32,271 nucleotides of DNA, from NCBI GenBank assembly GCA_022824265.1, contig JAJEAG010000002.1, positions 1-32,271 on the forward strand. The letters are read 5' to 3'. The stretch's first letter is position 1. Each line of letters begins with the position of its first letter. The notes below the pieces were generated by a model, which did no database searches, was not told where the DNA came from, and saw only the letters and a program-made list of their open reading frames with translations. Source of the DNA: Candidatus Poribacteria bacterium (GTDB lineage Bacteria > Poribacteria > WGA-4E > WGA-3G). Position numbers and translations under genes: made by a program. Below are positions 2,304 to 32,271 of this stretch, in pieces.

Positions 2304-3932
2304 TTAGAAACGCAACAGGGCTTTTGCTTCAATTTCATTACCTGTATCATTTATTCCAAATTGATTACCTATGTTCCGTCTCCATACGCGATTCCATTCA
2401 CCATAAAACGAGTAATCTCCAATATTTACCCAGTTAAACCCGACTCTTAAACGGTGCTCACTTTCGGTTAGTCCAGATAATGGTGTCCAAACATCATCTT
2501 TAGGTGCATCAACAGGATGATTCTTATCTATGTCTCCTTGACCGTGCCGTTCAAGTTCATATCCAAATACGGTTTCAAGTTTATCAGTAATACGTTTCCG
2601 TAGTTCTAACCACAAATTATCCGCATCAGTACCGATATGATGCCCTATGACAGACGTAAAATGTTTATAAACGTTTACTGGATTTACATGTGTATATGTA
2701 TATTGATTGATGAAGGCATATTCTGCGTGAAAATCTGTATCTGCGAATCCGAATGGATCTGTTACATATATACCACCAAGTATTCCAAATTTTGTATCCC
2801 AATGATAAAAACTGGCGGCGGGATTGCCATCATCTACCATCAATTCACCATAAATTTCAAAATTGTTTATCGGTCTATATCGCATGTCAAAACTGATCAT
2901 CACATTATCCCCACTACCTGGGGCACGACTGTCAGCACGTGATATAGTTTGTTCGTTTATTAGATAGATATTTACTGGATTCAAATAACCCGGTTCAAAT
3001 CTGTTACCATAAACAACTACCTCAGACAAACCTAAACCGAATCTATCCCAGAAATACCCCTCTGCTCTATGTCCTGATATATATTTATCATTGATGTCTT
3101 CCGACATATCTTCTAATACACCAGTAAAGGCAGTAAAAGTAACATTCTTGAAAGTTGTATTCAATTTCAGCATATCAATGGCAATCGGGTTTGATGATAC
3201 TAACAAATTACCATGGTATCCAGGTCCCCACTGCAGATTGTCCTGTCCAAACTGCAGCTCAAACCATGGCATTTTAAATTTGAGATAACTATTGATTGCT
3301 GTTCTATTTTTCAGTTCCCCTTCTAATTGTCTATATTTCGATTCATCACGGTAAACATCGTCAAAAAAATCACCATACAAAAATCTATATGCCATATCAG
3401 CAGAGAAGGCAAAACTATCCTCCACCTGTCCATATATATGTGGGAATAGTGATGTAACGTGCATATTTCCTTCATCAGTTGGTAGTTCTGATATGTTATC
3501 AACTAATCGTGTTATTTCATGTTGTCCTGCTCGTAAATCAAAGGATAAACGAAAGGTAGAGTCGTCTGTTAATGAAAAAAGATGTAATCTACGATCTGGC
3601 GGTGTCTCAGTTCCTGCCTCTGAATAAAAGGCTAAGAATTCTCTTAAGCGTTTCTGATCATTGACACTTAATGTCAATTCACCATTTTCTTGCTTTTGAG
3701 AAACTTCTAACAGTAATGTTACGACCTGTTTTCGCGTAAAAGGTAGAGAACCTCGTGTTACACCTTTCAATACACGTTTATTAAGTAAACGTTGAATAAA
3801 GCGGTAGGTTTCAGTATTAAAGTCGGATAGGTTGGGATTTAAAGGGACATTAATCAGTGGAGATCCATGACAGAGTGGTATATAACAGATAAGAAAAAGT
3901 GCACAAAAAACTATTGAAATGCGTAAAGACAT
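2304..3932 (-). CDS. Capsule assembly Wzi family outer-membrane protein
   Basis: A probable outer-membrane beta-barrel that holds or assembles surface polysaccharide. The 542-residue protein has a signal peptide (hydrophobic core about 5-22, ending near HGS), a short helical region at about 25-105, and then alternating amphipathic strands to the C-terminus. It ends in Phe, as many barrel proteins do. Family-like blocks include FELQFGQDNLQWGPGYHGNLL, RAEGYF followed by LGLSEVVVYG, YLNPVN, and DTKFGILGGI. The ATG start is preceded by AGGAGG, one of the clearest ribosome binding sites in the locus. In Wzx/Wzy-type loci Wzi proteins act at the cell surface, and finding one here supports an attached capsule-like glycan rather than purely intracellular glycan metabolism. 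Confidence 0.85.
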   Translation of the reverse strand: MSLRISIVFCALFLICYIPLCHGSPLINVPLNPNLSDFNTETYRFIQRLLNKRVLKGVTRGSLPFTRKQVVTLLLEVSQKQENGELTLSVNDQKRLREFLAFYSEAGTETPPDRRLHLFSLTDDSTFRLSFDLRAGQHEITRLVDNISELPTDEGNMHVTSLFPHIYGQVEDSFAFSADMAYRFLYGDFFDDVYRDESKYRQLEGELKNRTAINSYLKFKMPWFELQFGQDNLQWGPGYHGNLLVSSNPIAIDMLKLNTTFKNVTFTAFTGVLEDMSEDINDKYISGHRAEGYFWDRFGLGLSEVVVYGNRFEPGYLNPVNIYLINEQTISRADSRAPGSGDNVMISFDMRYRPINNFEIYGELMVDDGNPAASFYHWDTKFGILGGIYVTDPFGFADTDFHAEYAFINQYTYTHVNPVNVYKHFTSVIGHHIGTDADNLWLELRKRITDKLETVFGYELERHGQGDIDKNHPVDAPKDDVWTPLSGLTESEHRLRVGFNWVNIGDYSFYGEWNRVWRRNIGNQFGINDTGNEIEAKALLRF

Positions 3933-4266
3933 TTGTATGTGTTCCTCCTCGCGACGAAGTATATATTTTTTTACGTGAATTCGGAATCAGTAACTTACGG
4001 AATCGGCTGAATCCACAACCTAAATTCAGTCGTCATTGATTTATGTAGAAGCATCCGAATTTTCAGAGTCATTCTTGACTAAATAAGTCATAATAGTCCT
4101 GTAAAACCATACTGAATATAGGTTCGTGGCACATGATAAAATTGTGCAAATTTCCCTCCGACTCTGAAAACTCTGAATCTTTAGAACGTAAGTAATGTAC
4201 ATTTCATCATATCAAAAGGTTTCCTTCTGGCTCACAATACTATCATTAATCGAACTCACGTTGTGA
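3933..4266. other. Intergenic region with an 11-bp inverted repeat
   Basis: No gene is seen in these 334 nt. The only structure noted is an inverted repeat, TTTTCAGAGTC at 4060-4070 and GACTCTGAAAA at 4160-4170, with arms about 90 nt apart. The Wzi ribosome binding site lies at the left edge. No convincing sigma-70 promoter for the minus strand was found, though the gap length would allow one for the Wzi gene. Confidence 0.4.
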
Positions 4267-6360
4267 TTATTTCAGAATAACCATTTGTCGAATTTTTTTT
4301 GTATTTCCAGCGTTGAGACTGTAATAATAAACTCCACTTGAAACAGGTTCACCATTAGTATTTCTTCCATCCCAAAACGCTGCCTGTGATTTTGTCCTAT
4401 ATGTTCCAGCTTTCTGAAAACCTATATGTATTTCCTTTATAGTTTCACCTTGCATATTGTAGATATTGATATTGACATAAGAATCTTGTGCTAAATCATA
4501 AGGTATCCAAGTTTCTGGATTAAAGGGATTCGGATAATTGGGTAGTAAAACAGTTTTTTCTGGTATGATGTTTTTCATCAATACTTCTAAGTTTGCGATC
4601 CCATATTTAAATACTTCTGAACCATCATCTGCTTGATATGCTTCAGACAGCCATTTGTCAATTTGTACAATATGATCCTGTGAAAGTAAAGTTGACTTGT
4701 TTGGTGCAGATGTGTTCGTACTTTCACCTATATGTGCAGCTACAAGCAGTAAATCAATTATGTTAACTGTACCATCATTGTTAACATCCACCCTCGGATT
4801 CTCAGGTTTTACATCACCAAAACTTGAAGAAATGATCATTAGATCCTGTATATCAACAATTCCATCGTTGTTTACATCCCAGGGTGTAGTTTGACGAATA
4901 TGAAATTGTTCTGGTATATCAGAAAGTGTTCCCTGCCAACCTTCTTGTAGTTTGGCACTAAGTTGATTAACAAGGTCAATGTTCTCTGGTAAATGTGCAA
5001 TATTAACTGTTTCAAACGGGTCATTGAAATAATTATAAAGTTCTTGACCGTGTTCACCCTGATTTCCCCATTCAGTATATCGGTACTGTGCTGTCCGTAT
5101 GGAAACACCTTTAACTATTCCTTTGTTTAATTGGCTAAATACTCCATCCTTCCAATTTCGAGTGGGTTCTTCTATGACAGGCATCAGACTCAAACCTTCT
5201 GACTGGATGGGCGTTGGAAGTTGACATACATCACACAAAGTCGGATAGATATCAACAAGTTCAGATAGGGCGTTAGTTTCTGCTGCCTGTTGCCCGGGCA
5301 CACTAACAATTAAAGGTGAACGGAGCGAAACTTCAAATAATGTTTGTTTCCCCCAAATCCCATGTTCACCAAGATGGTGTCCGTGATCACTGCAGAATAC
5401 AATTACAGTATTATTAGTTAGACCAAGGGAATCTAACTTTGATAATACTCGTCCGATTTGTGCATCAACATAACTTGTCGACGCTGCATAGGCACGTATT
5501 AACTCCAATGTCTTTTCGTTAGAAAGTGGCACATTTCCAGAAGGTAGATCTTGATAGTTTCTGATAGAGTTCCAATTATTAAGTGCTTTGGAAGGAACAT
5601 CCACAGGTGGTATATTAGAAACAGGTAAGTCAAAGTCTTGGATATCATATAATTCAAAATATTTTTCAGGTGCTTCCAATGGAAAATGTGGTTTGTAGAA
5701 TCCAACGGACAAAAAGAATTGTTCGTGTTTTATTTCATCTAAAACTTGAACTGCACGTAATGCAGTCTTCCCATCTCTTAGGTCACCATCCTCAACATCA
5801 AGTGCTTGCCAAGATGGAGTTGTTTGTATGTCAAATGGTCTCCAAGTAGGTCTCCAAGAAGGTACACTCCATGAGTTTTCATCGTCTTGGAGTCTCGGAT
5901 GATGTGCTACCCTACCGACAGATTGTGTATGGTATCCGTATCTTTTAAAGTTTTGTGGTAGTGTTACTACCTCAGGTAATTTCTCACGAAAATCATCAGT
6001 ATTATTTAGGACATCTGTCGATTCAGGTCGTAACCCTGTTATTATTGAGGTGCGGGATGGACTACAGAGAGGGTATTGACTATAAGCATGATTAAAAAGA
6101 GTTCCCCGCTCAGCAAGACTGTCTATATTAGGGGTATGCATCCTTGAATGCCCATAGCAGCCTAACATAGGACTTAGATCGTCTACAATGATGAACAACA
6201 CATTGTATTGTCCTGTAGCCTCAACACGAAGTTTAGGTAATAGAGAAGTCGTGAATGCAGCAGCACCTACCTTCAAACCTGTAGATAGAAAATCACGACG
6301 AGTTATTGAACGGTTTTGGGGAGAGTATTCTTTATTTTTAAAAAATGAATCTTTATTCAA
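4267..6360 (-). CDS. Tat-exported sulfatase (iduronate-2-sulfatase-like) with dockerin-like repeats and C-terminal sorting domain
   Basis: Predicted to hydrolyse sulfate esters on a glycan outside the cytoplasm. The 697-residue protein begins with a twin-arginine signal (TRRDFL at 20-25, then a hydrophobic stretch). The sulfatase domain follows, with metal ligands in the VDD motif (D60, D61) and the CSPSR signature (C99-R103), whose Cys is converted to formylglycine in active type I sulfatases. Motifs VGFYKPHFPLEAP and SDHGHHLGEHGIWGK fit the iduronate-2-sulfatase-like subgroup. Residues 495-543 hold two calcium-loop repeats (DVNNDGIVDIQDL, DVNNDGTVNIIDL) like a dockerin. Residues about 603-697 are an NYPNPFNPETWIPY-type C-terminal domain resembling T9SS/FlgD-like sorting tails. 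The start appears to be TTG, with AGGA 11 nt upstream; no ATG lies before the Tat motif. The substrate is unknown, and a role in trimming the locus's own glycan or host glycans is an inference. Confidence 0.92.
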   Translation of the reverse strand: MNKDSFFKNKEYSPQNRSITRRDFLSTGLKVGAAAFTTSLLPKLRVEATGQYNVLFIIVDDLSPMLGCYGHSRMHTPNIDSLAERGTLFNHAYSQYPLCSPSRTSIITGLRPESTDVLNNTDDFREKLPEVVTLPQNFKRYGYHTQSVGRVAHHPRLQDDENSWSVPSWRPTWRPFDIQTTPSWQALDVEDGDLRDGKTALRAVQVLDEIKHEQFFLSVGFYKPHFPLEAPEKYFELYDIQDFDLPVSNIPPVDVPSKALNNWNSIRNYQDLPSGNVPLSNEKTLELIRAYAASTSYVDAQIGRVLSKLDSLGLTNNTVIVFCSDHGHHLGEHGIWGKQTLFEVSLRSPLIVSVPGQQAAETNALSELVDIYPTLCDVCQLPTPIQSEGLSLMPVIEEPTRNWKDGVFSQLNKGIVKGVSIRTAQYRYTEWGNQGEHGQELYNYFNDPFETVNIAHLPENIDLVNQLSAKLQEGWQGTLSDIPEQFHIRQTTPWDVNNDGIVDIQDLMIISSSFGDVKPENPRVDVNNDGTVNIIDLLLVAAHIGESTNTSAPNKSTLLSQDHIVQIDKWLSEAYQADDGSEVFKYGIANLEVLMKNIIPEKTVLLPNYPNPFNPETWIPYDLAQDSYVNINIYNMQGETIKEIHIGFQKAGTYRTKSQAAFWDGRNTNGEPVSSGVYYYSLNAGNTKKIRQMVILK

Positions 6361-24178: not shown

Positions 24179-25582
24179 TCAATCTAAATTTTTCCGTTTA
24201 AATACTGCCATCTGTGTAGGTGAACCAACAACTTCATCATTTTCACCAATAGGATGAAACGCTACCTTATAACCGAATCGATTTGACACTTCATTTGCCC
24301 ATGTCTCAAATTCTAAACGTGTCCATTCAAAACGGTGATCTTTGTGCCGAAAACGTCCTGATGGGAGATTTTCAAACTTAATGTTGTATTCTACATTTGG
24401 TGTTGTCAACACAATCATATCGGGACAGGTATACTCAAACAAAACGCGTTCAAAAGCAGAAAGACGAGAGGAATCCAGATGTTCAATTACCTCAATTACA
24501 GCAGCAGCATCGTATCCTTCTAAACGTTTGTCTCTATAGCAAAGCGATCCTTGAAATAGTGTAAGACGTTCTTTTTTCTTCTCAGGTAATCGATCATAAT
24601 GTAAACGTTGTTTTACTTTAATTAGATTGCTATGTGAAACATCCATACCCACGATCTCTTCAAACTGTTTTTCTGCTAACAGTATCCGTATTAGCTTCCC
24701 TTCACCACAACCTAAATCAAGTACACGTTTTGCCCCGAAATCTTTGATTACCTCGGCAGTTTTTGATAAGCGAATTTCGTTTAAACCAATGTGTTCTTCA
24801 ATCTGTGTTTCCTCTTCATTTTGTTTATCCTCATCTGGTTCTACACCTGTATCGGATAATTGAGAGAACGCTTGACGTGTAAGTCTACGTTGATGTTTTA
24901 AATAACGGTTTACAATTGTTTCTTGTTCAGGATGATCTGAAAGCCATGCATCACCGTGTCTTAATAGTTTTTCTATCTCTGCTTCATCAACCCAATAGTG
25001 TTTTTCATCATCAAGGACTGGAATTAAAACATAGAGATGTGTTAGGAGTTCGCTTAATCTACGGGTAGCATCAAGTGTAACTGAAAAATAACGACTATTT
25101 CCCCAATCAGGAAACTGAGAATCCAAAATGTGTCGTTTTGCATGAACCGTATACTGTAAAGGCTCAAAGAGGTGTCGCAGAAAATGTTCACCACCTCTAC
25201 ACGGCAAAGTAGACAATTTGGCTGTTAACGGTATAGGTGTATCTAAGAGTTCAGGTCGATCCTTACATTTCCCTGCCAATGCACTCCCAAAAACCCTCGC
25301 GATAGCAACACTCAGAAATGATGATGCAGCATAAGGACGATCATTGACATATTCTGCTAAGGAAAAACTCTCACTTGACTGTCCACGATACCGACGCACA
25401 AGTCCAACTGAATCAATATCAAGCAGTAAAGCAGCAGTGCATTTCTCAGAACATGCCTCAGGATAAAAGACATGTGCTTGTCCATACGGAAGCGTAAATG
25501 TTTGAAGTTTGTCAGGATGCTTATGCAATAAAAAGCCAAGATCTGTAGCGGGAGAATGTGTTGTTGTGATAGTAAGAAGCAT
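24179..25582 (-). CDS. hen1: Hen1, 3' terminal RNA ribose 2'-O-methyltransferase
   Basis: Methylates the 2'-OH at the 3' end of cleaved RNA before Pnkp seals it, protecting the repaired site against renewed ribotoxin cleavage. The protein has 467 residues. The bacterial N-terminal domain begins MLLTITTTHSPATDLG, typical for the family, and is thought to stimulate the ligase of Pnkp. The C-terminal methyltransferase has motif I DLGCGEG (289-295) and the Hen1 metal-binding set E364, E367, H368 and H413 (EVIEHLD, then FRHKDHR). The start is ATG at 25582. A TTG 14 codons upstream is excluded in practice because it lies within the -10 box of the promoter at 25624-25652. It is the first gene of the hen1-pnkp operon. 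Confidence 0.95.
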   Translation of the reverse strand: MLLTITTTHSPATDLGFLLHKHPDKLQTFTLPYGQAHVFYPEACSEKCTAALLLDIDSVGLVRRYRGQSSESFSLAEYVNDRPYAASSFLSVAIARVFGSALAGKCKDRPELLDTPIPLTAKLSTLPCRGGEHFLRHLFEPLQYTVHAKRHILDSQFPDWGNSRYFSVTLDATRRLSELLTHLYVLIPVLDDEKHYWVDEAEIEKLLRHGDAWLSDHPEQETIVNRYLKHQRRLTRQAFSQLSDTGVEPDEDKQNEEETQIEEHIGLNEIRLSKTAEVIKDFGAKRVLDLGCGEGKLIRILLAEKQFEEIVGMDVSHSNLIKVKQRLHYDRLPEKKKERLTLFQGSLCYRDKRLEGYDAAAVIEVIEHLDSSRLSAFERVLFEYTCPDMIVLTTPNVEYNIKFENLPSGRFRHKDHRFEWTRLEFETWANEVSNRFGYKVAFHPIGENDEVVGSPTQMAVFKRKNLD

Positions 25583-25623
25583 TATTTTGGTAAATGAAAA
25601 TGATGTATTCTTCAGCAATTTCA

Positions 25624-25652
25624 ATTATATCTATTATGTCGCATGTTGTCAA
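25624..25652 (-). promoter_or_regulatory. Perfect consensus sigma-70 promoter of the hen1-pnkp operon
   Basis: On the minus strand: -35 TTGACA (25652-25647), spacer of exactly 17 nt, -10 TATAAT (25629-25624). Expected transcription start near 25617, giving a leader of about 35 nt before the hen1 ATG. A full consensus match suggests strong, constitutive expression unless a repressor acts here; no clear operator palindrome is seen. Confidence 0.85.
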
Positions 25653-25919
25653 GATATATGCATAAACATTCAATCATCGCGTTGTAATCTTATAATAGAG
25701 GTTTCTTCCCTTGATTACTTTCTACTTGAATCAAGAATTGCTCGTTCTCTACGTCTGAGATACGACAATCCCTTGAAAAAGTCTCCATCCCACCAAATTC
25801 CCTTCCGCGTCTTCAGTGCCTTCCGCGATTCAGACAACAAAAAACTGAAAACTGACCACTGAAAACTGAAAACTACTCCAAACATACATGAAACATATTG
25901 TTCACAGGTCCACAAACCC
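25653..25919. other. Intergenic region with short direct repeats
   Basis: No gene is supported. It contains a motif GTCTTCAG...ATTCAGACA (25809-25836), related to two copies at 26544-26591, and two copies of ACTGAAAACTGA (25844-25855 and 25858-25869) 14 nt apart. Short frames in it have no family features. Confidence 0.45.
25844..25869. repeat. 12-bp direct repeat pair ACTGAAAACTGA
   Basis: Two exact copies at 25844-25855 and 25858-25869, with a third partial copy running on to 25875. Low-complexity tandem sequence of this type often fills intergenic DNA; function unknown. Confidence 0.7.
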
Positions 25920-25948
25920 TTCACATCCCTCTTAACACCTGTTATAAT
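25920..25948 (+). promoter_or_regulatory. Sigma-70 promoter with extended -10, plus strand
   Basis: -35 TTCACA (25920-25925, one mismatch to consensus), 17-nt spacer, -10 TATAAT (25943-25948) preceded by TGn, an extended -10. It points toward the small gene at 26215, giving a leader of about 260 nt rich in A and C. The same leader holds the paired AAAAGATACCGTA repeats. It runs divergently from the hen1 promoter, about 270 nt away. Confidence 0.6.
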
Positions 25949-26151
25949 ACTACCACTATGAAACACAAAAAACGCTTACACTCCACATTCTCAATAAAAA
26001 ACGCCACCCGTCACCCAACAAATATCCACCCAAAAACCGACCACAACCCAGCACATAAAAAAGTTACCAAAAATATTTTTTTTCAACCACAAAAACCCAA
26101 TTTCAGCAACCCACGAACCCAGACAACCACTAACTTTAGACCGATTTTACC

Positions 26152-26190
26152 AAAAGATACCGTAATGTCAAAAAAAGATACCGTACGGTA
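26152..26190 (+). promoter_or_regulatory. Candidate operator: two AAAAGATACCGTA repeats and a 12-bp palindrome
   Basis: AAAAGATACCGTA occurs at 26152-26164 and 26173-26185, exactly 21 bp apart start to start, so the copies lie on the same face of the helix. The second copy extends into the perfect palindrome TACCGTACGGTA (26179-26190). The pair ends 8 nt before the AAAGGAGG ribosome binding site of the small gene. Binding by a repressor is an inference. Confidence 0.45.
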
Positions 26191-26214
26191 ACCTTTTAAA
26201 GGAGGAATATTCCA

Positions 26215-26445
26215 ATGAAATTCGGAGACAAACACAAACAATTCGTAGTCAAATCCTTCGCATCAGACATGCACTTTGCCAGAATCACAGAAACCACGGA
26301 AGACGCGGAAAGGCATCTTGTTATACCATTTCTGAATAATAACTTCTCATTAACAAGAAACGCGTTCGTAGTCGCGCAATTCATTGCCAAATCAACGCCA
26401 AATGCGCGTTTGGCATTTGGCGCCTTGGACATTTGGATTTATTAG
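26215..26445 (+). CDS. Small hypothetical protein, probably truncated by repeat DNA
   Basis: A 76-residue frame with a near-perfect ribosome binding site (AAAGGAGG at 26198-26205) and its own promoter region, so translation is likely. Only the first 17 or so residues (MKFGDKHKQFVVKSFAS) look like a normal protein start; they loosely recall DUF2280-type proteins, but this is a weak recollection. From about residue 38 on, the coding DNA is a Poribacteria-like GCGCAATTCATTGCC-type intergenic repeat followed by the perfect stem-loop at 26396-26422, so the original 3' part of the gene was probably lost. No function can be assigned. Confidence 0.35.
   Translation: MKFGDKHKQFVVKSFASDMHFARITETTEDAERHLVIPFLNNNFSLTRNAFVVAQFIAKSTPNARLAFGALDIWIY
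26396..26422. repeat. Perfect 10-bp stem-loop (CGCCAAATGC/GCATTTGGCG)
   Basis: Arms 26396-26405 and 26413-26422 with a 7-nt loop GCGTTTG. It lies inside the 3' part of the small gene's frame and looks like a REP-type dispersed element. It is not followed by a T-run, so it is not a standard terminator. Confidence 0.7.
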
Positions 26446-26543
26446 AGTCTCAAAATGTGGTTTTATTTATTAGAATTGGTATTATATCATATTTTTCCAA
26501 TGCTTAACGTGTCTGTTGTACAGGTCTTTTCAGTGTTTTCAGT

Positions 26544-26591
26544 GTCTTCAGCAATTCAGACAATTAACACGCGTCTTCAGCAATTCAGACA
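26544..26591 (+). repeat. Two copies of GTCTTCAGCAATTCAGACA
   Basis: Exact 19-bp copies at 26544-26562 and 26573-26591; a related, longer version is at 25809-25836. Each copy can form a small hairpin between GTCT and AGAC. Probably a dispersed intergenic repeat of this genome. Confidence 0.7.
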
Positions 26592-26629
26592 GGAAAATCG
26601 ACAGTTGTATACCTTTGCTACCATGTAAG

Positions 26630-26819
26630 CAGGGTTATTTAGTTTTCGGTTTTTCTGATGCATTTTATCACAAACGTTAATGTAGTGTCGTAAGGTGTTA
26701 CTTGGAAACTCAACATGGTAGTAGGCACACTCCGGAGTGTGCCTACTACTTTGCAAGGATAAAATCCTAACTATTAGTCCAACTCGTCAACAAGAAATTT
26801 ATAAAACTAAATAACCCTG
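26630..26819. mobile_element. MITE-like element with 17-bp inverted ends and a near-central 32-bp palindrome
   Basis: The 190-bp stretch is bounded by exact inverted repeats CAGGGTTATTTAGTTTT (26630-26646) and its complement (26803-26819). Near its middle lies a perfect 32-bp palindrome, 26718-26749, with half-site GTAGTAGGCACACTCC and no loop. There is no coding sequence and no obvious target-site duplication. The layout suggests a non-autonomous element or a composite of two repeat units; no transposase in the window is a clear partner. Confidence 0.55.
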
Positions 26820-26837
26820 GCATATCAGAGATGTTGG

Positions 26838-26954
26838 TTGATTTTTCTGCTGAATGCTGCTATACTGTGAATGCCCTTATATGGGTTATCCCAATTCTTG
26901 TTTATCAAACGTTCCGTTCAAAACCCAATCCTTTAGATTTGGGATGTAGAACGG
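26838..26954 (+). mobile_element. Miniature IS605-like unit 1: promoter-like box and TTTA-type right-end hairpin
   Basis: A promoter-like pair, TTGATT (26838-26843), 17 nt, TATACT (26861-26866), is followed after about 50 nt by a compound hairpin: outer stem CCGTTC/GAACGG (26914-26919, 26949-26954) and inner stem CCCAA/TTGGG with a CTTTA loop (26924-26943). The inner hairpin has the form of an IS200/IS605 right end. No gene is present. It is the first of three similar successive units. Confidence 0.4.
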
Positions 26955-26981
26955 CTAAATCTTTTATTTTCTCAAAAGAAC

Positions 26982-27230
26982 TTGACATTAAATTTGTATT
27001 GTAGCATACTATTAGTAGTATTGTGATGGTGGATGCAACCTTCTGCCTGGAAGTGCCACCACACCATTTTACAGTGGTAGTACAATGTTGAAGGATATAC
27101 AATGCAAACCTATAAATACAAGTTGAAAAACATACTAACGTCAGAGTTAGAGAAGTTGACTGCGTCTTCTGCATCCGTATGGAATGAAGATAGTTTGCTA
27201 ACAATCCCATTGCTTTAGCAATGGGTCAGA
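26982..27230 (+). mobile_element. Internally deleted IS605/TnpB-type element (unit 2)
   Basis: Starts with a promoter, TTGACA (26982-26987), 17 nt, CATACT (27005-27010), then a leader with a TGGTGG/CCACCA stem, then the first codons of a tnpB-like gene (27102) that run straight into the right-end hairpin CCCATTGC-TTTA-GCAATGGG at 27206-27225, an 8-bp perfect stem. The central and 3' parts of tnpB are missing, so this is a miniature derivative that might be moved in trans by a full element elsewhere. The exact outer ends cannot be fixed from one copy. Confidence 0.55.
27102..27218 (+). pseudogene. tnpB N-terminal remnant
   Basis: ATG at 27102 begins a 38-codon frame, MQTYKYKLKNILTSELEKL then TASSASVWNED, which resembles the start of IS1341-type TnpB proteins (short basic strand, helix, SA-x-x-WNE). 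The similarity ends after WNE, and the frame then reads through the element's right-end hairpin and stops at TAG 27216-27218. None of the RuvC or zinc-finger region remains. Confidence 0.5.
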
Positions 27231-27236
27231 AAACGC

Positions 27237-27265
27237 TTGACATTTTTCTGTTTATCGGATATAAT
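27237..27265 (+). promoter_or_regulatory. Perfect consensus sigma-70 promoter in front of a gene-free region
   Basis: -35 TTGACA (27237-27242), exactly 17 nt, -10 TATAAT (27260-27265). Expected start near 27272. What follows is about 400 nt without a convincing gene but with many potential stems. It may also feed the membrane-protein and PspA-like genes from about 27724 on. Confidence 0.8.
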
Positions 27266-27271
27266 GTTCTT

Positions 27272-27672
27272 ATCTCACAGTGAGAGGAAATGCTATCGTT
27301 ATCATCCTTGATAACGTTCCTCTCCATCCAAGTAGCATATAGGATTTTGTGAGTTGTGAGAACAAACCCGATTTAGATACCTACAAACATTTAGATGCGC
27401 TTGTAGCCTAAACATCAGCAAGTCTAAAAACAGACTCCCGCGATACTCAACATGTGGTTGGTCGCGTATCAGGAGGTTCCACACTAAAAAGTCTCCTATA
27501 GTCGCATCTGTGGTGCGTGCCGTAGAGCGTTGCATGACTTCTACGTTACTTAAGTTTAGCCGTTACCAAAATGGAACGCATAACTTTGGAGTCGCTATAA
27601 GCGACAAAACGCTGCTCGTATGCCTTGTGGGAGGCGAGTCTTCTTAAAGAAGCCCACTGCTTTAGTTGTGGG
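27272..27672 (+). ncRNA. Candidate structured RNA ending in an IS605-type right end (unit 3)
   Basis: The expected transcript folds from its first bases. CTCACA (27274-27279) can pair with TGTGAG (27348-27353 or 27355-27360). Inside is a long hairpin with outer stem GAGAGGAA/TTCCTCTC (27282-27289, 27317-27324) and inner stem CGTTATCA/TGATAACG (27297-27304, 27309-27316, loop TCCT). The bulge ATGCTA (27290-27295) can pair with TAGCAT (27333-27338) as a pseudoknot. More stems follow: CTACAA/TTGTAG (27381-27406), AGTCT/AGACT (27421-27436), CGCGA-CAAC/GTTG-TCGCG (27439-27466), AGGAG/CTCCT (27471-27497), GTCGC/GCGAC (27591-27605), GCCT/AGGC (27622-27635), and the right-end hairpin at 27653-27672. 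The short stems could each arise by chance; the first nested hairpin is unlikely to. It could be an orphan TnpB guide (omega) RNA or another element-borne RNA. Confidence 0.4.
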
Positions 27673-27723
27673 AGTGCATCACCTGTATGGAATATCCATA
27701 CTACTGGTATCGTATGCAATTTG

Positions 27724-28557
27724 GTGAAAACGTTGATTGATAGAAAATTGTTTCGGCAGAAATACTTATTTCATCTTATTAGCAACCCCTACACCATTTA
27801 CCCATTTGCAACAGGTGTACTTGGCGTTTTTTTATCTTGGGTTTTCAACTTAGAACCACAGGTACTCTATTTATTCGCAAGCGCGGTTGTTGGTATTGGT
27901 CTTCCTATAGGTGCAATAATCACAAGATGGACAACTGGCACAGATGATATTGCTAAACAGGTCCATGAAGAGATACTCCACGAAACGCAACATAAACAGG
28001 AAGAAGAACTAAACGCGTTACATAGACAGTTACAGAAGGATGGAGACAAAAGAACAGAACAGATGTTAGAAGAACTTCGTGCCTTACATAATTCATTTCA
28101 AGAGGAGGCGCGAGATGCAGGTTGGATGGCTTCTCTTCCCCTAACAGTAAGTGCTGAAATTACCGATAAAGTTACTGACTTATTCACACAAGCGGTCGAA
28201 TGTTTGAAAGATACATTGAAGATGTATGAGAAATCAAGGGATTCGCAGCTAACAACTGTCAGGCGAGTATTACGACAACATAGAGAACAACAGATTGCAG
28301 ATGTCCAACAGACAATTGTTCAGCTTTCACACCTCTATGCACGAGTATTGACGATTAGTCCTGAAAGTAATGAAACAGAACTTGCACGATTACGTACAGA
28401 ACTTGATGAAAGTCTTGCATTTGCAAAGAAAGTTGATGAACAGATACGCGAAACCACAGATCAGGATATACTGCAAAAGAGTCACTCTGTAAAAGACGCA
28501 CATACGATGAATGCTCATCAAAATACAACGTCGGTAGAAGAAAACGAACTCCAATGA
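27724..28557 (+). CDS. Two-TM coiled-coil membrane protein of the PspA-like operon
   Basis: Family not recognised. From the GTG at 27724 the protein has 277 residues: two hydrophobic helices at about 24-42 and 46-67, then a charged, Gln/Glu-rich coiled coil (HEEILHETQHKQEEELNAL onward), a helical region at about 105-160, and a second coiled coil at about 175-250. The frame stays open to a TTG at 27625, but that part runs through the IS605-type right-end hairpin and is probably not coding. TTG 27721 or GTG 27724 are the first plausible starts after it; neither has a good ribosome binding site, so the start is uncertain. It precedes the 11-residue-repeat protein by 46 nt. Its membrane anchor and coiled coil make it a candidate partner or receptor for the PspA-like proteins downstream. 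Confidence 0.65.
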   Translation: MKTLIDRKLFRQKYLFHLISNPYTIYPFATGVLGVFLSWVFNLEPQVLYLFASAVVGIGLPIGAIITRWTTGTDDIAKQVHEEILHETQHKQEEELNALHRQLQKDGDKRTEQMLEELRALHNSFQEEARDAGWMASLPLTVSAEITDKVTDLFTQAVECLKDTLKMYEKSRDSQLTTVRRVLRQHREQQIADVQQTIVQLSHLYARVLTISPESNETELARLRTELDESLAFAKKVDEQIRETTDQDILQKSHSVKDAHTMNAHQNTTSVEENELQ

Positions 28558-28603
28558 ATAGTTTTATATCCATAGGATAACTATTTCTACTATTTTAAGG
28601 TGA

Positions 28604-29164
28604 GTGAAATTGACCGAAACATTTGTAGTTGAAAAGTTCAAACAAGTTTTTCGATCTTACTATTTGAAGAGGTGTATTCTCTGCGGTGTTTTGTGGTGTG
28701 TTTATCTTTCATACACTATGTATAGAGTATTCGGTAATGTTGAATCTTCAATTGACGTACAAGGGATGATGGCTACTGGAAAGATTGCTGTTGCGGGTCT
28801 TGTAGCAACTGGTGCCATTGCGATTGGGGGTGGATTTGCAGGAGGTATTATTGCGATTGGGGGTGCTGGAGCAATTGGTGTAATTGCGATCGGTGGCGTA
28901 TTCGCATGGGGGATTATTGCCATTAGCAGTTCCCAGTCTATTGGTATAATCGCTATTTCTGGTTTATACAGTTATGGGATAATTGTATTTGTCGGTTTTA
29001 TTGCAATTGGTTTATATGTCTGGGGTGTTTATACACTGTCTATTACTGGGAAAGGAAAGAGCAAATACGAATTTTCAACTAACTATCAAAACCCACAAGC
29101 AGTCAAGGTCTTTACAAGTATTATGCCAAAGTTAAAATTAGCGTTCTTGTCAACTCCTAACTGA
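28604..29164 (+). CDS. Small membrane protein with eight 11-residue glycine-led repeats
   Basis: No family recognised. The 186-residue protein has a basic N-terminal part, a hydrophobic segment at about 22-40, and then eight registers of exactly 11 residues, each starting with Gly: G59, G70, G81, G92, G103, G114, G125 and G136. The consensus is G-[IVA]-I-A-I-[GS]-[GS]-x-x-x-x, for example GIIAIGGAGAI and GVIAIGGVFAW. A short polar tail follows. The repeats are almost wholly apolar, so they either lie in the membrane or form a solenoid against it. The GTG at 28604 is too close to AAGG (28597-28600); TTG 28610 has better spacing, so the true start may be six nt later. It sits between the coiled-coil protein and the PspA-like genes. 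Confidence 0.7.
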   Translation: MKLTETFVVEKFKQVFRSYYLKRCILCGVLWCVYLSYTMYRVFGNVESSIDVQGMMATGKIAVAGLVATGAIAIGGGFAGGIIAIGGAGAIGVIAIGGVFAWGIIAISSSQSIGIIAISGLYSYGIIVFVGFIAIGLYVWGVYTLSITGKGKSKYEFSTNYQNPQAVKVFTSIMPKLKLAFLSTPN

Positions 29165-29176
29165 GAATATATTCCT

Positions 29177-29791
29177 ATGTCACGCATAATAACCCGTTTT
29201 TTTAAAGCGGTTTGGTATACAATTACCTTTCGTGCACACGAGAAAGCAGATAGACTCATGCAACACCCTATGGCAGTTCATGCGATGTATGAAGACATCA
29301 TAAGCGAAAAACAAGAGAATCTCATCATGTATAAAAAAGGGATTGAGCAAATGACCAATCTGATTGAACTAAAGAGAAATTCAGTCGATGGATTTACTTC
29401 AGACATCAACAACATTGAAAAATTGAAGGAGAGAGCATTTTCTGAGCAGAATAATATCATCGCTGACCTACAAAAAGCAGGAACATCAACCGAGGAGATC
29501 GAACATCATCCCTCCTACTTAAGATGTAATACTGTTAACAATAATTATCACTCCATATTAGAGAAAAAACACATGCATCTTGACAAACTTAAACAGGATA
29601 TTGAACAGGGACAGAAAGACATTGAATCGCATTCGCAGCATCTTATACACCTACAGAATGAATTGGAAATAATTAAGCAGGAGCAATTCGAAATGGTTGC
29701 TGAATTAATCAGGGAACGCGAACAGAAGGAATTAGAGAAGATACTCTATGATATTCCGAGTGTTAGCACATCAAATAATGAAAAAACTTAA
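29177..29791 (+). CDS. PspA/IM30-like coiled-coil protein, paralogue 1
   Basis: A 204-residue, almost fully helical protein. It starts with an amphipathic segment (IITRFFKAVWYTITFRAHEKADRL), like the membrane-binding helix 0 and helix 1 of PspA/Vipp1, followed by YEDIISEKQENLIMYKKGI and long heptad-rich helices to about 195. PspA/IM30 proteins belong to the ESCRT-III superfamily and polymerise on membranes to protect or reshape them. This copy is the most diverged of the four in the RYKQAIGQ block (here MYKKGIEQ). It starts 12 nt after the stop of the 11-residue-repeat gene, without a clear ribosome binding site, so it is probably translated by coupling. Assignment is by pattern and by similarity to paralogue 4, not by an alignment search. 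Confidence 0.72.
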   Translation: MSRIITRFFKAVWYTITFRAHEKADRLMQHPMAVHAMYEDIISEKQENLIMYKKGIEQMTNLIELKRNSVDGFTSDINNIEKLKERAFSEQNNIIADLQKAGTSTEEIEHHPSYLRCNTVNNNYHSILEKKHMHLDKLKQDIEQGQKDIESHSQHLIHLQNELEIIKQEQFEMVAELIREREQKELEKILYDIPSVSTSNNEKT

Positions 29792-29868
29792 CATGCGATA
29801 AAGATTGATTTTAGTGGATAAATATTGAAACAATGAAATGGTAAACTATTCATATAGGAGAAGTTGCG

Positions 29869-30474
29869 ATGGCAAATAAAAAATCACGTTTTCTCAAACC
29901 TTTTTGGTATAAAATATCTGGACATACTGATCAAGAAAAACATACGAAGACCATTGAAGAGGTGAGTGCAGCATACGACACGATTATTAGATTCAAACGT
30001 GCGTATATTCAATGCTACAAACAAGCGATTGGACAAATGCTCCCACCTATTGAACATAATAAGAGTATAATTGAGCAACTCACTAAAGAGATTGAAGAGT
30101 TGAACCAAAATATTGCTGACACTATAGATAATACGAAAAAACTTGTAGAGGCTCATAAAAAAGGTGGAGTATCAGACGAAGAGATTGAGCAGATGCCGGA
30201 TTACAAGGAATGGATTGACAGAAAAGACAGAATACAGTCTATGATTGAGGAGAGAAACAACTGGATCGAAAAACGAAAACAGGATAACGAACGGTTTGAG
30301 ACGGACATTGAATTCCACAAACAACAGTTGACAAGACTATTTCGTGGTATAGATATGATTAAGACAGATCAATCTGAAGCCATTGAGCATATCAATTATA
30401 TCCGTATGCAAAAAGGTATTGCGATGACACTGTCAGAGATCAGTTTAGACGACACCTCACAGGAAAAAGACTAA
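29869..30474 (+). CDS. PspA/IM30-like coiled-coil protein, paralogue 2
   Basis: A 201-residue helical protein related to its neighbours. The N-terminal basic-aromatic stretch (KSRFLKPFWYKISG) is followed by YDTIIRFKRAYIQCYKQAIGQM, matching the conserved IxRYKQAIGQL block of paralogues 3 and 4, then GGVSDEEIEQMPDYKEW, matching the AG-x-x-x-EEI-x-x-x-P-x-Y block, then a long coiled coil ending IKTDQSEAIEHI. The motif order is the same in all four copies, although the residues have drifted. ATG start with AGGAGA at good spacing. Its stop overlaps the next start by one nt (TAATG). Confidence 0.72.
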   Translation: MANKKSRFLKPFWYKISGHTDQEKHTKTIEEVSAAYDTIIRFKRAYIQCYKQAIGQMLPPIEHNKSIIEQLTKEIEELNQNIADTIDNTKKLVEAHKKGGVSDEEIEQMPDYKEWIDRKDRIQSMIEERNNWIEKRKQDNERFETDIEFHKQQLTRLFRGIDMIKTDQSEAIEHINYIRMQKGIAMTLSEISLDDTSQEKD

Positions 30475-31196
30475 TGAGAAATGGCATTACACGTTTATAC
30501 AAGGCAATGTGGTATACACAAGTTGGTCGATCACTTGAACAAGCAGATCAGCAGACCGATTATGATGATTTGTTTGACGAGAACGGTGATGACATTATCC
30601 AACACTTTGAAGAATCTGAATCTATCATTAATTATCCAGAATCTATACGTGGGGAATATGAAGACATTATCCGGCAGAAGCAAAGCAATATCCAACGTTA
30701 TAAGCAAGCGATTGGACAACTCATTGCACTTATTGAACAAAAAAAGAGTTCGTTAAAGGCACTTGATGGTGAGGTTGAGAATCTTGAACAGTTGAAGGAA
30801 GACGCATTTGCAAAAGTTGAGATAATTGCAGCCGAACTGCGAGAAGCTGGAGTTGCAGATGAAGAGATTGAACAACATCAATCCTATAAGCGTTGTATTA
30901 CCTCATTTAACGACTTTAAGTCAACCATTGTAAAGAAAAACGTACGTATTGACAAACTACAACAAGATATTGATCGTTTGCAGAATGACATTGAACATCA
31001 TAAGAATTCAATTACTATGCTGCATCGTGATTTAGATAAAACAAAGACTGAACAATCAGAGGCAGTCGCTGACTTCATTGCTGCCCGTGAAAAGGAAGAA
31101 ATTAACAATATGCTGTCAGGGGTTAGCAGTGAGGAGACAACAGCACAATTGAAACGTATACGAGAAATTCGGGAGAAAGTATTGCAAAAATTATAG
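30474..31196 (+). CDS. PspA/IM30-like coiled-coil protein, paralogue 3 with acidic N-terminal insertion
   Basis: A 240-residue paralogue. After the amphipathic start (GITRLYKAMWYTQVGRSLEQAD) it carries an acidic insertion of about 30 residues (DYDDLFDENGDDIIQHFEES) that the other three copies lack, located where helix 1 joins the core hairpin in PspA-type proteins. Then YEDIIRQKQSNIQRYKQAIG, REAGVADEEIEQHQSYKRC and KTEQSEAVADFI follow in the family order. It ends IREIREKVLQKL, without the C-terminal extension of paralogue 4. Start and stop are tightly coupled to paralogue 2. The insertion may change membrane binding or polymer contacts, which is an inference. Confidence 0.75.
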   Translation: MRNGITRLYKAMWYTQVGRSLEQADQQTDYDDLFDENGDDIIQHFEESESIINYPESIRGEYEDIIRQKQSNIQRYKQAIGQLIALIEQKKSSLKALDGEVENLEQLKEDAFAKVEIIAAELREAGVADEEIEQHQSYKRCITSFNDFKSTIVKKNVRIDKLQQDIDRLQNDIEHHKNSITMLHRDLDKTKTEQSEAVADFIAAREKEEINNMLSGVSSEETTAQLKRIREIREKVLQKL

Positions 31197-31290
31197 GTTG
31201 TAAGCGTAACTTGTTTGAAAATCGTTTTTATTTTAAGATTCAAATGGAAGAAATTAACAAAATTTCATATTTCACACAGGAGGAAATCCA

Positions 31291-32127
31291 ATGGCAAACG
31301 GCATTACCCGTTTTTTCAAAGCAATATGGTATACCCTAACCGGTCGCGCACACGAGCAGGCTGACAGACTCATGGAAAACCCCGAAGCGGTTCGTGGTGC
31401 CTATGAGGACATTATCAAAGATAAGCAGGGGAATATCCAACGTTATAAACAAGCGATCGGGCAACTCATCGCACTTGTTGAACAGAAAAAAGGTTCCCTT
31501 AAAAAACTTACTGATGAAATTGACAAACTTGAACAGATGAAGGCGGGTGCAATCGCTAAAGCGAAAAGCACAGCTGCTGAACTACAACAAGCAGGCACTC
31601 CAGATGAAGAAATCAAACAAAATCCAGATTATGTCCGTTGTGTCACATCATATAACGATTTTCATTCTACATTAGAAGAGAAAAACGCGCGGGTAACGGA
31701 ACTTGAAGATGATATTGAACGGGCACAAGGAGACATTGAATCCCATAAACTACAGATAACTGGTCTCCATAAAGATCTTGACAAGATTAAGACAGAACAA
31801 TCTGAAGCAGTTGCAGACCTAATTACTGCAAAGGAACAGGAAGATATTGCAGATATGCTTTCTGGTATAAGTATGGATGGCACCTCAGCGGAATTAAGTC
31901 GTATGCGCGAAATTCGAGAGAAAGCAAAAGGACGATCAAAAGTCGCACAAGAACTCGCTGGTACAGATTCACGCGCTGAAGAGGAAGAATTCCTTGCCGC
32001 TGCTCGGTCCACTGCTGCTACTGATGAATTTGATTCACTTATCTTTGGTGCACAACAAACGGATACTCCCGCGCAAACTGAAGAAGCCAAGGATGAGACA
32101 AAGAGTGAATCCGAATTGCCTTTATAA
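31291..32127 (+). CDS. PspA/IM30 family protein, paralogue 4 (longest, most typical)
   Basis: A 278-residue protein, the copy closest in length and layout to standard PspA/IM30/Vipp1 proteins (about 220-260 residues). It has an amphipathic N-terminus (ITRFFKAIWYTLTGRAHEQAD), YEDIIKDKQGNIQRYKQAIG (36-55), a central heptad-rich hairpin with AAELQQAGTPDEEIKQNPDY, and a KTEQSEAVADLI block. A C-terminal part, REIREKAKGRSKVAQELAG then EEEEFLAAARSTAATDEFDSLIFG, resembles the late helices of PspA. It ends in an acidic, Thr/Glu-rich tail of about 25 residues. Perfect AGGAGG ribosome binding site, the best of the four genes, so this may be the main polymer-forming subunit. The TAA stop is followed directly by an IS605-type right end. 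Confidence 0.82.
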   Translation: MANGITRFFKAIWYTLTGRAHEQADRLMENPEAVRGAYEDIIKDKQGNIQRYKQAIGQLIALVEQKKGSLKKLTDEIDKLEQMKAGAIAKAKSTAAELQQAGTPDEEIKQNPDYVRCVTSYNDFHSTLEEKNARVTELEDDIERAQGDIESHKLQITGLHKDLDKIKTEQSEAVADLITAKEQEDIADMLSGISMDGTSAELSRMREIREKAKGRSKVAQELAGTDSRAEEEEFLAAARSTAATDEFDSLIFGAQQTDTPAQTEEAKDETKSESELPL

Positions 32128-32190
32128 CTAATGACCGCTCCCCGCCCTAAAGGACGGGGTTTCTTTGAACCTCATCCGAACAATTAGGGG
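32128..32190 (-). mobile_element. Right end of an IS200/IS605 (TnpB-type) element, minus strand
   Basis: On the minus strand the sequence reads through a CCCCG-TCCTTTAGGG-CGGGG hairpin (32140-32159) to AGCGGTCA at the tip, a very typical right end of IS1341/TnpB-type elements. On the plus strand the same hairpin followed by TTTCTTT can serve as a terminator for the PspA-like operon. The element runs out of the window to the right. Confidence 0.65.
32140..32166 (+). terminator. Hairpin plus T-rich tail, terminator for the PspA-like operon
   Basis: CCCCG (32140-32144) pairs with CGGGG (32155-32159), with further pairing inside across one mismatch, followed by TTTCTTT. It starts 13 nt after the stop of the last PspA-like gene. 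The structure belongs to the transposon end but is well placed to end transcription. Confidence 0.55.
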
Positions 32191-32271
32191 TTAGACGCAC
32201 ATCCACGTGATGTTTTTGTCTATGGAACCATCTTCAGACTTCTTTAGGTATGAACCGTCATCACGGGGTCC
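32191..32271 (-). CDS. Possible C-terminal end of a TnpB-type protein, cut by the window edge
   Basis: Reading inward from the right edge on the minus strand, 26 codons are open (GPRDDGSYLKKSEDGSIDKN and on to WMCV) and end at TAA (32193-32191), about 32 nt before the right-end hairpin. That is where the end of tnpB is expected. The piece is too short to recognise the family by itself, so the call rests on its place in the element. Confidence 0.3.
   Translation of the reverse strand, partial: GPRDDGSYLKKSEDGSIDKNITWMCV

Follow-up and report, generated by a model that had tools for sequence, protein, structure and literature searches.

Passages of Ravi et al. 2024 (PMC11237479) considered here describe PspA and transmembrane (TM)-bearing Snf7 homologues in association with a protein that has two AAA modules, the N-terminal one inactive, with an ABC transporter and with PBPB-OmpA proteins, and state that how PspA homologues lacking an AAA partner regulate their assembly is unknown. 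No experimental work on the PspA-AAA system was found in the literature searched. For the polymers themselves, alpha5 of Vipp1 subunit j binds the hairpin of subunit j+3, and Vipp1 deprived of alpha5/6 forms neither rings nor filaments (PMC8281802); an IM30 fragment comprising alpha0-3 binds membranes with an apparent dissociation constant (KD) of 2.2 uM, and alpha4-6 hardly binds (PMC12636044). Here, we analyze a related locus in a 4.45 Mb metagenome-assembled genome (G000) of a sponge-associated Candidatus Poribacteria bacterium. The window, i.e., the whole stretch of DNA under study, is one complete contig of this genome (C28; 32,271 bases), and its six genes of interest are named TM2cc, repTM, and psp1 through psp4. 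We find one complete and conserved PspA-type gene, psp4 (the "master"), preceded by three homologous copies without alpha5, psp1-3 (the "satellites"), at what appears to be the 5' part of a divergent PspA-AAA operon with the core order TM2cc - psp4 - (c11) - AAA ATPase.

All six open reading frames were verified in the window sequence on the + strand, where a preliminary description of this DNA had placed them as a single cassette:

27724/27727-28557, + strand: TM2cc, two TM segments and a long coiled coil
28604-29164, + strand: repTM, membrane protein with an 11-residue repeat
29177-29791, + strand: psp1, 204 aa, alpha0 and alpha1-3 hairpin only, no alpha5
29869-30474, + strand: psp2, 201 aa, alpha0 and hairpin only, the fastest evolving copy
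30474-31196, + strand: psp3, 240 aa, acidic 24-aa insertion after alpha0, hairpin and most of alpha4, no alpha5
31291-32127, + strand: psp4, 278 aa, complete alpha0-alpha5 and conserved tail
31381..31863, + strand: psp4 residues 31-191, ESCRT-III-type alpha1-alpha2/3 hairpin (predicted helices 31-100 and 112-191)
31885..32046, + strand: psp4 residues 199-252, alpha4 and alpha5 (predicted helices 199-222 and 227-252)
32047..32124, + strand: psp4 residues 253-278, predicted-disordered tail ending SELPL

The four psp genes are indeed PspA/IM30-like paralogues. They can be aligned along their length, with 28-45% identity to psp1 and 31 invariant columns that include W13-Y14, Y38xxI41-I42, K53, Q58, G102 and E106-E107-I108, and their likeness goes beyond chance because a search of their own genome links psp4 to the other three copies at E values of 6e-69 to 2e-36. 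The motifs reported as common to all four were borne out in part: the W-Y, YxxII and G/EEI columns are invariant, but RYKQAIGQ and KTEQSEA are exact in psp3 and psp4 only (CYKQAIGQ and KTDQSEA in psp2; MYKKGIEQ and KQEQFEM in psp1). The one-nucleotide overlap described for psp2 and psp3 is present as TAATG at 30472-30476.

The fold of psp4 was assigned by Foldseek and HMMER rather than by VIA-align, which returned many generic coiled coils (Z 11-14) and no Vipp1 among the matches listed, a listing that still leaves room for Vipp1 as a relative. An AlphaFold2 model built with 25 homologues (mean predicted local distance difference test score, pLDDT, 72.5; >90 across most of the hairpin) places alpha0 at residues 5-28, alpha1 at 31-100, alpha2/3 at 112-191, alpha4 at 199-222 and alpha5 at 227-252. 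The five best Foldseek matches of this model in the PDB are all Vipp1 (best E 9e-4). Likewise, an hmmsearch of PDB sequences with the psp4-family profile ranks Vipp1/PspA first, with the C-terminal half covered (Vipp1 E 4.5e-5), and the profile matches canonical Poribacteria PspA at E 1e-4. Against Pfam PF04012 (PspA_IM30; gathering cut-off 33.9 bits), psp4 itself scores 27.2 bits, and its orthologues from three relatives (G042, G010 and G003) exceed the cut-off with 34.4-35.9 bits. Overall, profile and model matches support placing psp4 in the PspA/Vipp1/ESCRT-III superfamily, and the model shows the alpha0-alpha5 helix order of that group.

Orthologues of psp4 were recovered from 57/59 genomes of the window's family (f1) and from 7 genomes of other families of the class. 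Conservation extends into the C-terminal region: an EFDxLIFGAxQxD block begins at residue 246, just ahead of the tail, and near-invariant columns fall within residues 246-258 and 273-277 among 25 orthologues, the latter at the terminal DSELP. The tail itself is modelled at pLDDT <50. Ends that are conserved yet disordered are typical of docking motifs.

The satellites, in turn, end where psp4 runs on by another 60-80 residues. Aligned to psp4, the hairpins of psp1-3 fill 161/161 positions at 40-63% identity. Beyond the hairpin, psp1, which also fills 28/28 positions of alpha0, retains 6/24 of alpha4 and 0/26 of alpha5; psp2 has 0/26 of alpha5, and psp3 has 17/24 of alpha4 and 0/26 of alpha5. 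The same architecture is found across the window's genus (g1), where the hairpin is present in all 22 satellites examined (146-161 of 161 positions) and alpha0 in nearly all of them. Alpha5 is filled at 0-6 of 26 positions in 21 of them and at 19/26, with 26% identity, in the remaining one, compared with 26/26 in every psp4 examined. An unlinked 205-aa copy from another genus stops at the same point. To judge from these alignments, psp1-3 are homologues of psp4 yet probably not complete polymer subunits.

Linked satellites occur in the window's genus only, at 0-3 per genome and in variable order. The preliminary description had looked to relatives for conserved order of all six genes; the arrangement TM2cc-repTM-psp1-psp2-psp3-psp4 is common to G000 and one other genome, G002, and in G002 the psp2 orthologue stops at codon 176 of 201. 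In a phylogenetic tree, every psp4 falls on one side and every satellite on the other, a split of moderate support (85/87); several satellite branches are long, and the tree is tentatively compatible with one origin of the shortened copy followed by gains and losses.

The satellites are under purifying selection, 3-6 times weaker than that on psp4. The ratio of nonsynonymous to synonymous substitution rates (dN/dS) is 0.06 for the psp4 of the window (range across psp4 0.06-0.15), compared with 0.18 for psp1 (95% interval 0.11-0.28), 0.36 for psp2 (0.19-0.56) and 0.26 for psp3 (0.17-0.40). Satellite pairs overall span 0.18-0.50, and every bootstrap 95% upper limit lies below 1; the copies are therefore constrained. 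Ribosome-binding sites and start codons are retained in most satellites. Where in-frame stops occur, they mostly remove just the last residues (codons 176/201, 184/194 and 230/232), which weakens the case for plain pseudogenes.

The window is a whole contig that ends 144 nt past psp4, and the downstream part of the operon is therefore absent from it. In relatives, 52 distinct neighbourhoods have a gene of about 600 codons, c1, downstream of psp4; in ten of these a second gene of similar length, c11, lies between the two. In the window's own genome, c11 (590-2386; L135:590-2386) and the ATPase gene (2474-4282) stand at the start of another contig, C97, because the window contig breaks off behind psp4; synteny suggests that C28 and C97 are adjacent. 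c1 encodes a classical AAA ATPase (PF00004, 52 bits) with its AAA domain in the C-terminal half. The N-terminal half has no Pfam hit and is compatible with a degenerate AAA copy, and the Pfam search of c1 returned PF00004 alone, with no MIT-type domain match. Walker A/B residues and a W/Y-F-G-Q pore loop are conserved; the closest PDB relatives are Cdc48/p97, with Vps4 and katanin among the matches listed.

Of 85 genomes of the phylum, 64 have psp4 and 66 a strong c1 match, and psp4 never occurs without c1 (Fisher p 5e-17, not corrected for kinship). The two genomes with c1 only carry it on contigs of 4.4-4.8 kb. The ESCRT-like logic proposed in the preliminary description is thus strengthened, since a Cdc48/Vps4-type AAA ATPase is genetically linked to psp4 in relatives. 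c11 has no match in Pfam, NCBIfam or PADLOC. In neighbourhoods of family f1, c11 is present if and only if TM2cc is present, and the two co-occur in 10/10.

The two membrane genes ahead of the psp series had been put forward as partners, and only one of them held up as such. TM2cc orthologues adjoin psp4 in other families of the order at 41-50% identity, and dN/dS is 0.07; TM2cc is an old (ancestral) partner of psp4. Its model (mean pLDDT 60) comprises TM helices at about residues 22-41 and 45-72 and a coiled coil. TM2cc, a possible counterpart of the TM-bearing Snf7 homologue of Ravi et al. 2024, gave no hhalign match to PspA or Snf7, and its model no Foldseek match with E <0.09; the VIA-align matches listed are mainly designed repeats and assorted helical bundles. 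repTM does have the reported 11-residue period, with about eight units of the form GxIAIGGxxAx, but its relatives are scattered over 47/58 family genomes and lie at the psp4 locus in six. repTM is accessory rather than a core partner.

The PspA-AAA-TM system itself is already known, since the locus matches the association in the cited passages of Ravi et al. 2024. Like those operons (PMC11237479), it brings together a gene for a PspA-like protein, one for a TM coiled-coil protein and one for an ATPase whose C-terminal half holds an AAA module. The likeness extends further in order-level relatives only, which also carry genes for ABC ATPase, permease, substrate-binding and PBP-OmpA proteins. 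Other families have a longer operon (PBP-OmpA, VWA, TM2cc, psp4, ABC substrate-binding protein, permease, ATPase, AAA), not all genes being present everywhere; how many of the ABC transporter and PBP-OmpA genes are present varies among relatives at the order and class level (L055, L056 and L058). They are absent from the neighbourhoods of family f1, the window's own included, so that these Poribacteria differ from the published operons in lacking the transporter part and in carrying c11 beside TM2cc. They differ as well in the alpha5-less tandem PspA copies added in genus g1, which go unmentioned in the passages of PMC11237479 considered here. What is new is therefore the addition of alpha5-less satellite copies to a known kind of PspA-AAA operon.

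Relative to Vipp1/IM30 (PF04012; PDB 6zvr, 8qbw and 7o3w), which provide its best sequence and structure matches, psp4 has the same order of alpha0, alpha1-3 hairpin, alpha4 and alpha5, but only about 20% identity and a linked AAA gene, and psp1-3 lack alpha5. With archaeal and eukaryotic ESCRT-III and Vps4 the locus has in common a hairpin polymer protein and a classical AAA ATPase; unlike in those systems, the ATPase is closest to Cdc48/p97 and shows no MIT match, and one complete polymer subunit is conserved. The cyanobacterial PspA/Vipp1 dyads and triads, as presented in those parts of Ravi et al. 2024, are likewise adjacent PspA-family paralogues. They pair distinct PspA-like and Vipp1-like clusters, however, whereas the Poribacteria have one complete gene and C-terminally truncated duplicates. 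Among the six window proteins, Pfam gave no PspB or PspC match that would point to the partners of a canonical pspFABC operon.

Alongside the direct observations of gene content, homology, master/satellite split, missing alpha5, purifying selection on the satellites and AAA linkage in relatives, we tentatively favour, with somewhat less than even confidence, a module in which one polymerising PspA, psp4, is accompanied, within a PspA-AAA operon, by hairpin copies that cannot polymerise themselves and instead cap, dilute or tune its polymer. By analogy with published Vipp1/IM30 work, psp4 would polymerise and psp1-3 would not. The module would be of an ESCRT-III/Vps4-like, membrane-remodelling type with psp4 as the polymerising subunit: alpha0 and the hairpin of psp4 would bind the inner membrane, alpha4/alpha5 would lock neighbouring subunits, and the disordered tail could plausibly be what the linked AAA ATPase grips in order to extract psp4 subunits and recycle the polymer. 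TM2cc may tether the polymer to the membrane or serve as its nucleation point there. The satellites, presumably tandem duplicates of the psp4 gene that lost alpha5 and tail, are predicted to bind the membrane and to accept a neighbour's alpha5, but neither to donate one nor to be gripped by the ATPase. Copies that accept and cannot donate alpha5 would therefore cap or dilute psp4 polymers, and copies without the tail might escape the ATPase. The satellites could thus cap or dilute the polymer or prime the membrane, thereby controlling polymer length or dynamics, and would be natural counterparts of the laboratory-made IM30 alpha0-3 fragment. Several observations weigh against this proposal. 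One satellite, G003_a, is broken, with no alpha0 and an internal stop; the number and sequence of the satellites are highly variable, which fits decay equally; their predicted hairpins carry net negative charge, unlike the positive clusters used by the IM30 hairpin; psp2 and psp3, unlike psp1 and psp4, have no clear amphipathic signal in alpha0; and confidence in the psp4 model is low outside the hairpin.

The main alternative, a serious one that we nonetheless doubt, is that psp1-3 are ordinary tandem duplicates in slow decay and that only TM2cc, psp4, c11 and the AAA ATPase matter. The restriction of linked satellites to one genus, their varying copy number, fast evolution, occasional stops and one broken member all accord with decay, as do a genome that retains a short satellite fragment only (G007) and the other genera of the family that manage without linked copies. 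Set against this are the dN/dS upper limits below 1 in all tested pairs and the ribosome-binding sites and start codons kept in most copies. Moreover, the copies all break off at one and the same point, as does the unlinked copy of another genus, a pattern not readily expected from random decay. The preliminary description had instead taken psp1-4 for separate subunits that together build a hetero-polymer, in the manner of eukaryotic and archaeal ESCRT-III. Such an assembly is favoured by the presence of four intact and diverged homologues that run in one direction and have an ESCRT-III-type hairpin, by the Vps4-type ATPase that relatives carry in the operon, and by the possibility that hairpins pack side by side; it is improbable, however, given that psp1-3 lack the alpha5 that is essential for Vipp1 polymers (PMC8281802), that the same set of four is found in G000 and G002 only, and that psp4 alone suffices in most relatives. 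The several complete paralogues conserved together that would mark a multi-subunit ESCRT-III were not found in the relatives compared. A polymer of equal subunits was accordingly rejected as the principal explanation: psp4 alone is complete and conserved, and the satellites, all missing alpha5, belong to a set that is not conserved and evolve 3-6 times faster.

It is also conceivable, if very improbable, that the satellites diversify as a layer of defence or stress protection, for instance by acting as decoys for membrane-active peptides, phage proteins or sponge neighbours, with psp4 as the housekeeping repair protein. Fast, locus-variable satellites beside a slow core would fit that role, and Poribacteria are host-associated and PspA proteins act in envelope stress. 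PADLOC, however, yields only weak LmuB and IetA matches that resemble coiled-coil and ATPase cross-matches; dN/dS below 1 means no sign of positive selection; and no defence genes were recognised adjoining the locus. NCBIfam matches to SMC, Rad50 and ASRP families, far under cut-off, were dismissed as coiled-coil cross-matches.

The C-terminal module of psp4 also occurs apart from the hairpin. Three genomes of another genus encode proteins of about 385-416 aa in which the alpha4-alpha5-EFDxLIFG module is fused to a glycine-rich TM domain at the N-terminus (L127:7122-8279, L129:7074-8324 and L131:7053-8228), and relatives of the N-terminal domain were found in three further genomes. These fusions suggest that the psp4-type C-terminal module may work on its own. 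A broader idea, which we regard as rather unlikely, is that the natural alpha0-alpha3 copies are dedicated caps or diluents of an ATPase-recycled polymer and that the alpha4-alpha5-tail module is reused as a recruitment tag on other membrane proteins.

Further PspA-family genes lie elsewhere in these genomes. Contig C41 of the window's genome carries two adjacent fusions of an RDD membrane domain to PspA on the - strand (L044:4546-6833), both Pfam domains being above cut-off, so that G000 has no fewer than seven PspA-family genes; RDD-PspA-type matches recur in pairs or triples across the genus. In G010, a PspA-like gene directly precedes an ABC ATPase and a membrane protein (L137:4378-5800), a separate PspA-ABC association with a related match in the window's genome (contig C3:1777-2376).

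Two features flank the cassette:

27237..27265, + strand: promoter-like site with the perfect sigma-70 consensus TTGACA-17-TATAAT (12/12 match), about 460 nt upstream of the first gene
32130..32271, - strand: hairpin and short reading frame resembling an IS200/IS605-type end, at which the contig breaks

The promoter-like site sits within a structured, mobile-element-like stretch (27200-27720) that has a very stable predicted RNA (z -4.6) and short hairpins resembling IS200/IS605 ends. This stretch was not found in G002 and its ends recur at other places in related genomes; it is therefore no conserved part of the system, and is possibly a non-autonomous element that now provides the cassette promoter. 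At the other side, similar hairpins stand at both contig ends (window 32130-32271, CCCCGCCCTAAAGGACGGGG; start of C97, CCCCGACCTAAAGGAACGGGG), and a mobile element between psp4 and c11 may have caused the contig break. Rfam gave sub-threshold matches only over 25500-32271. Farther upstream, a small reading frame of about 76 aa follows a strong ribosome-binding site at 26215-26445, in an otherwise apparently non-coding 2 kb.

Finally, the locus bears on what takes bacterial PspA/Vipp1 polymers apart and what limits their length. Between them, the linked Vps4-like ATPase, the conserved psp4 tail and the naturally truncated copies make up a set of parts for in vitro tests. If the satellites act as proposed, these Poribacteria would also illustrate a route by which a single-subunit ESCRT-III may start toward a multi-subunit one, through gene duplication and then loss of the polymerising helix.

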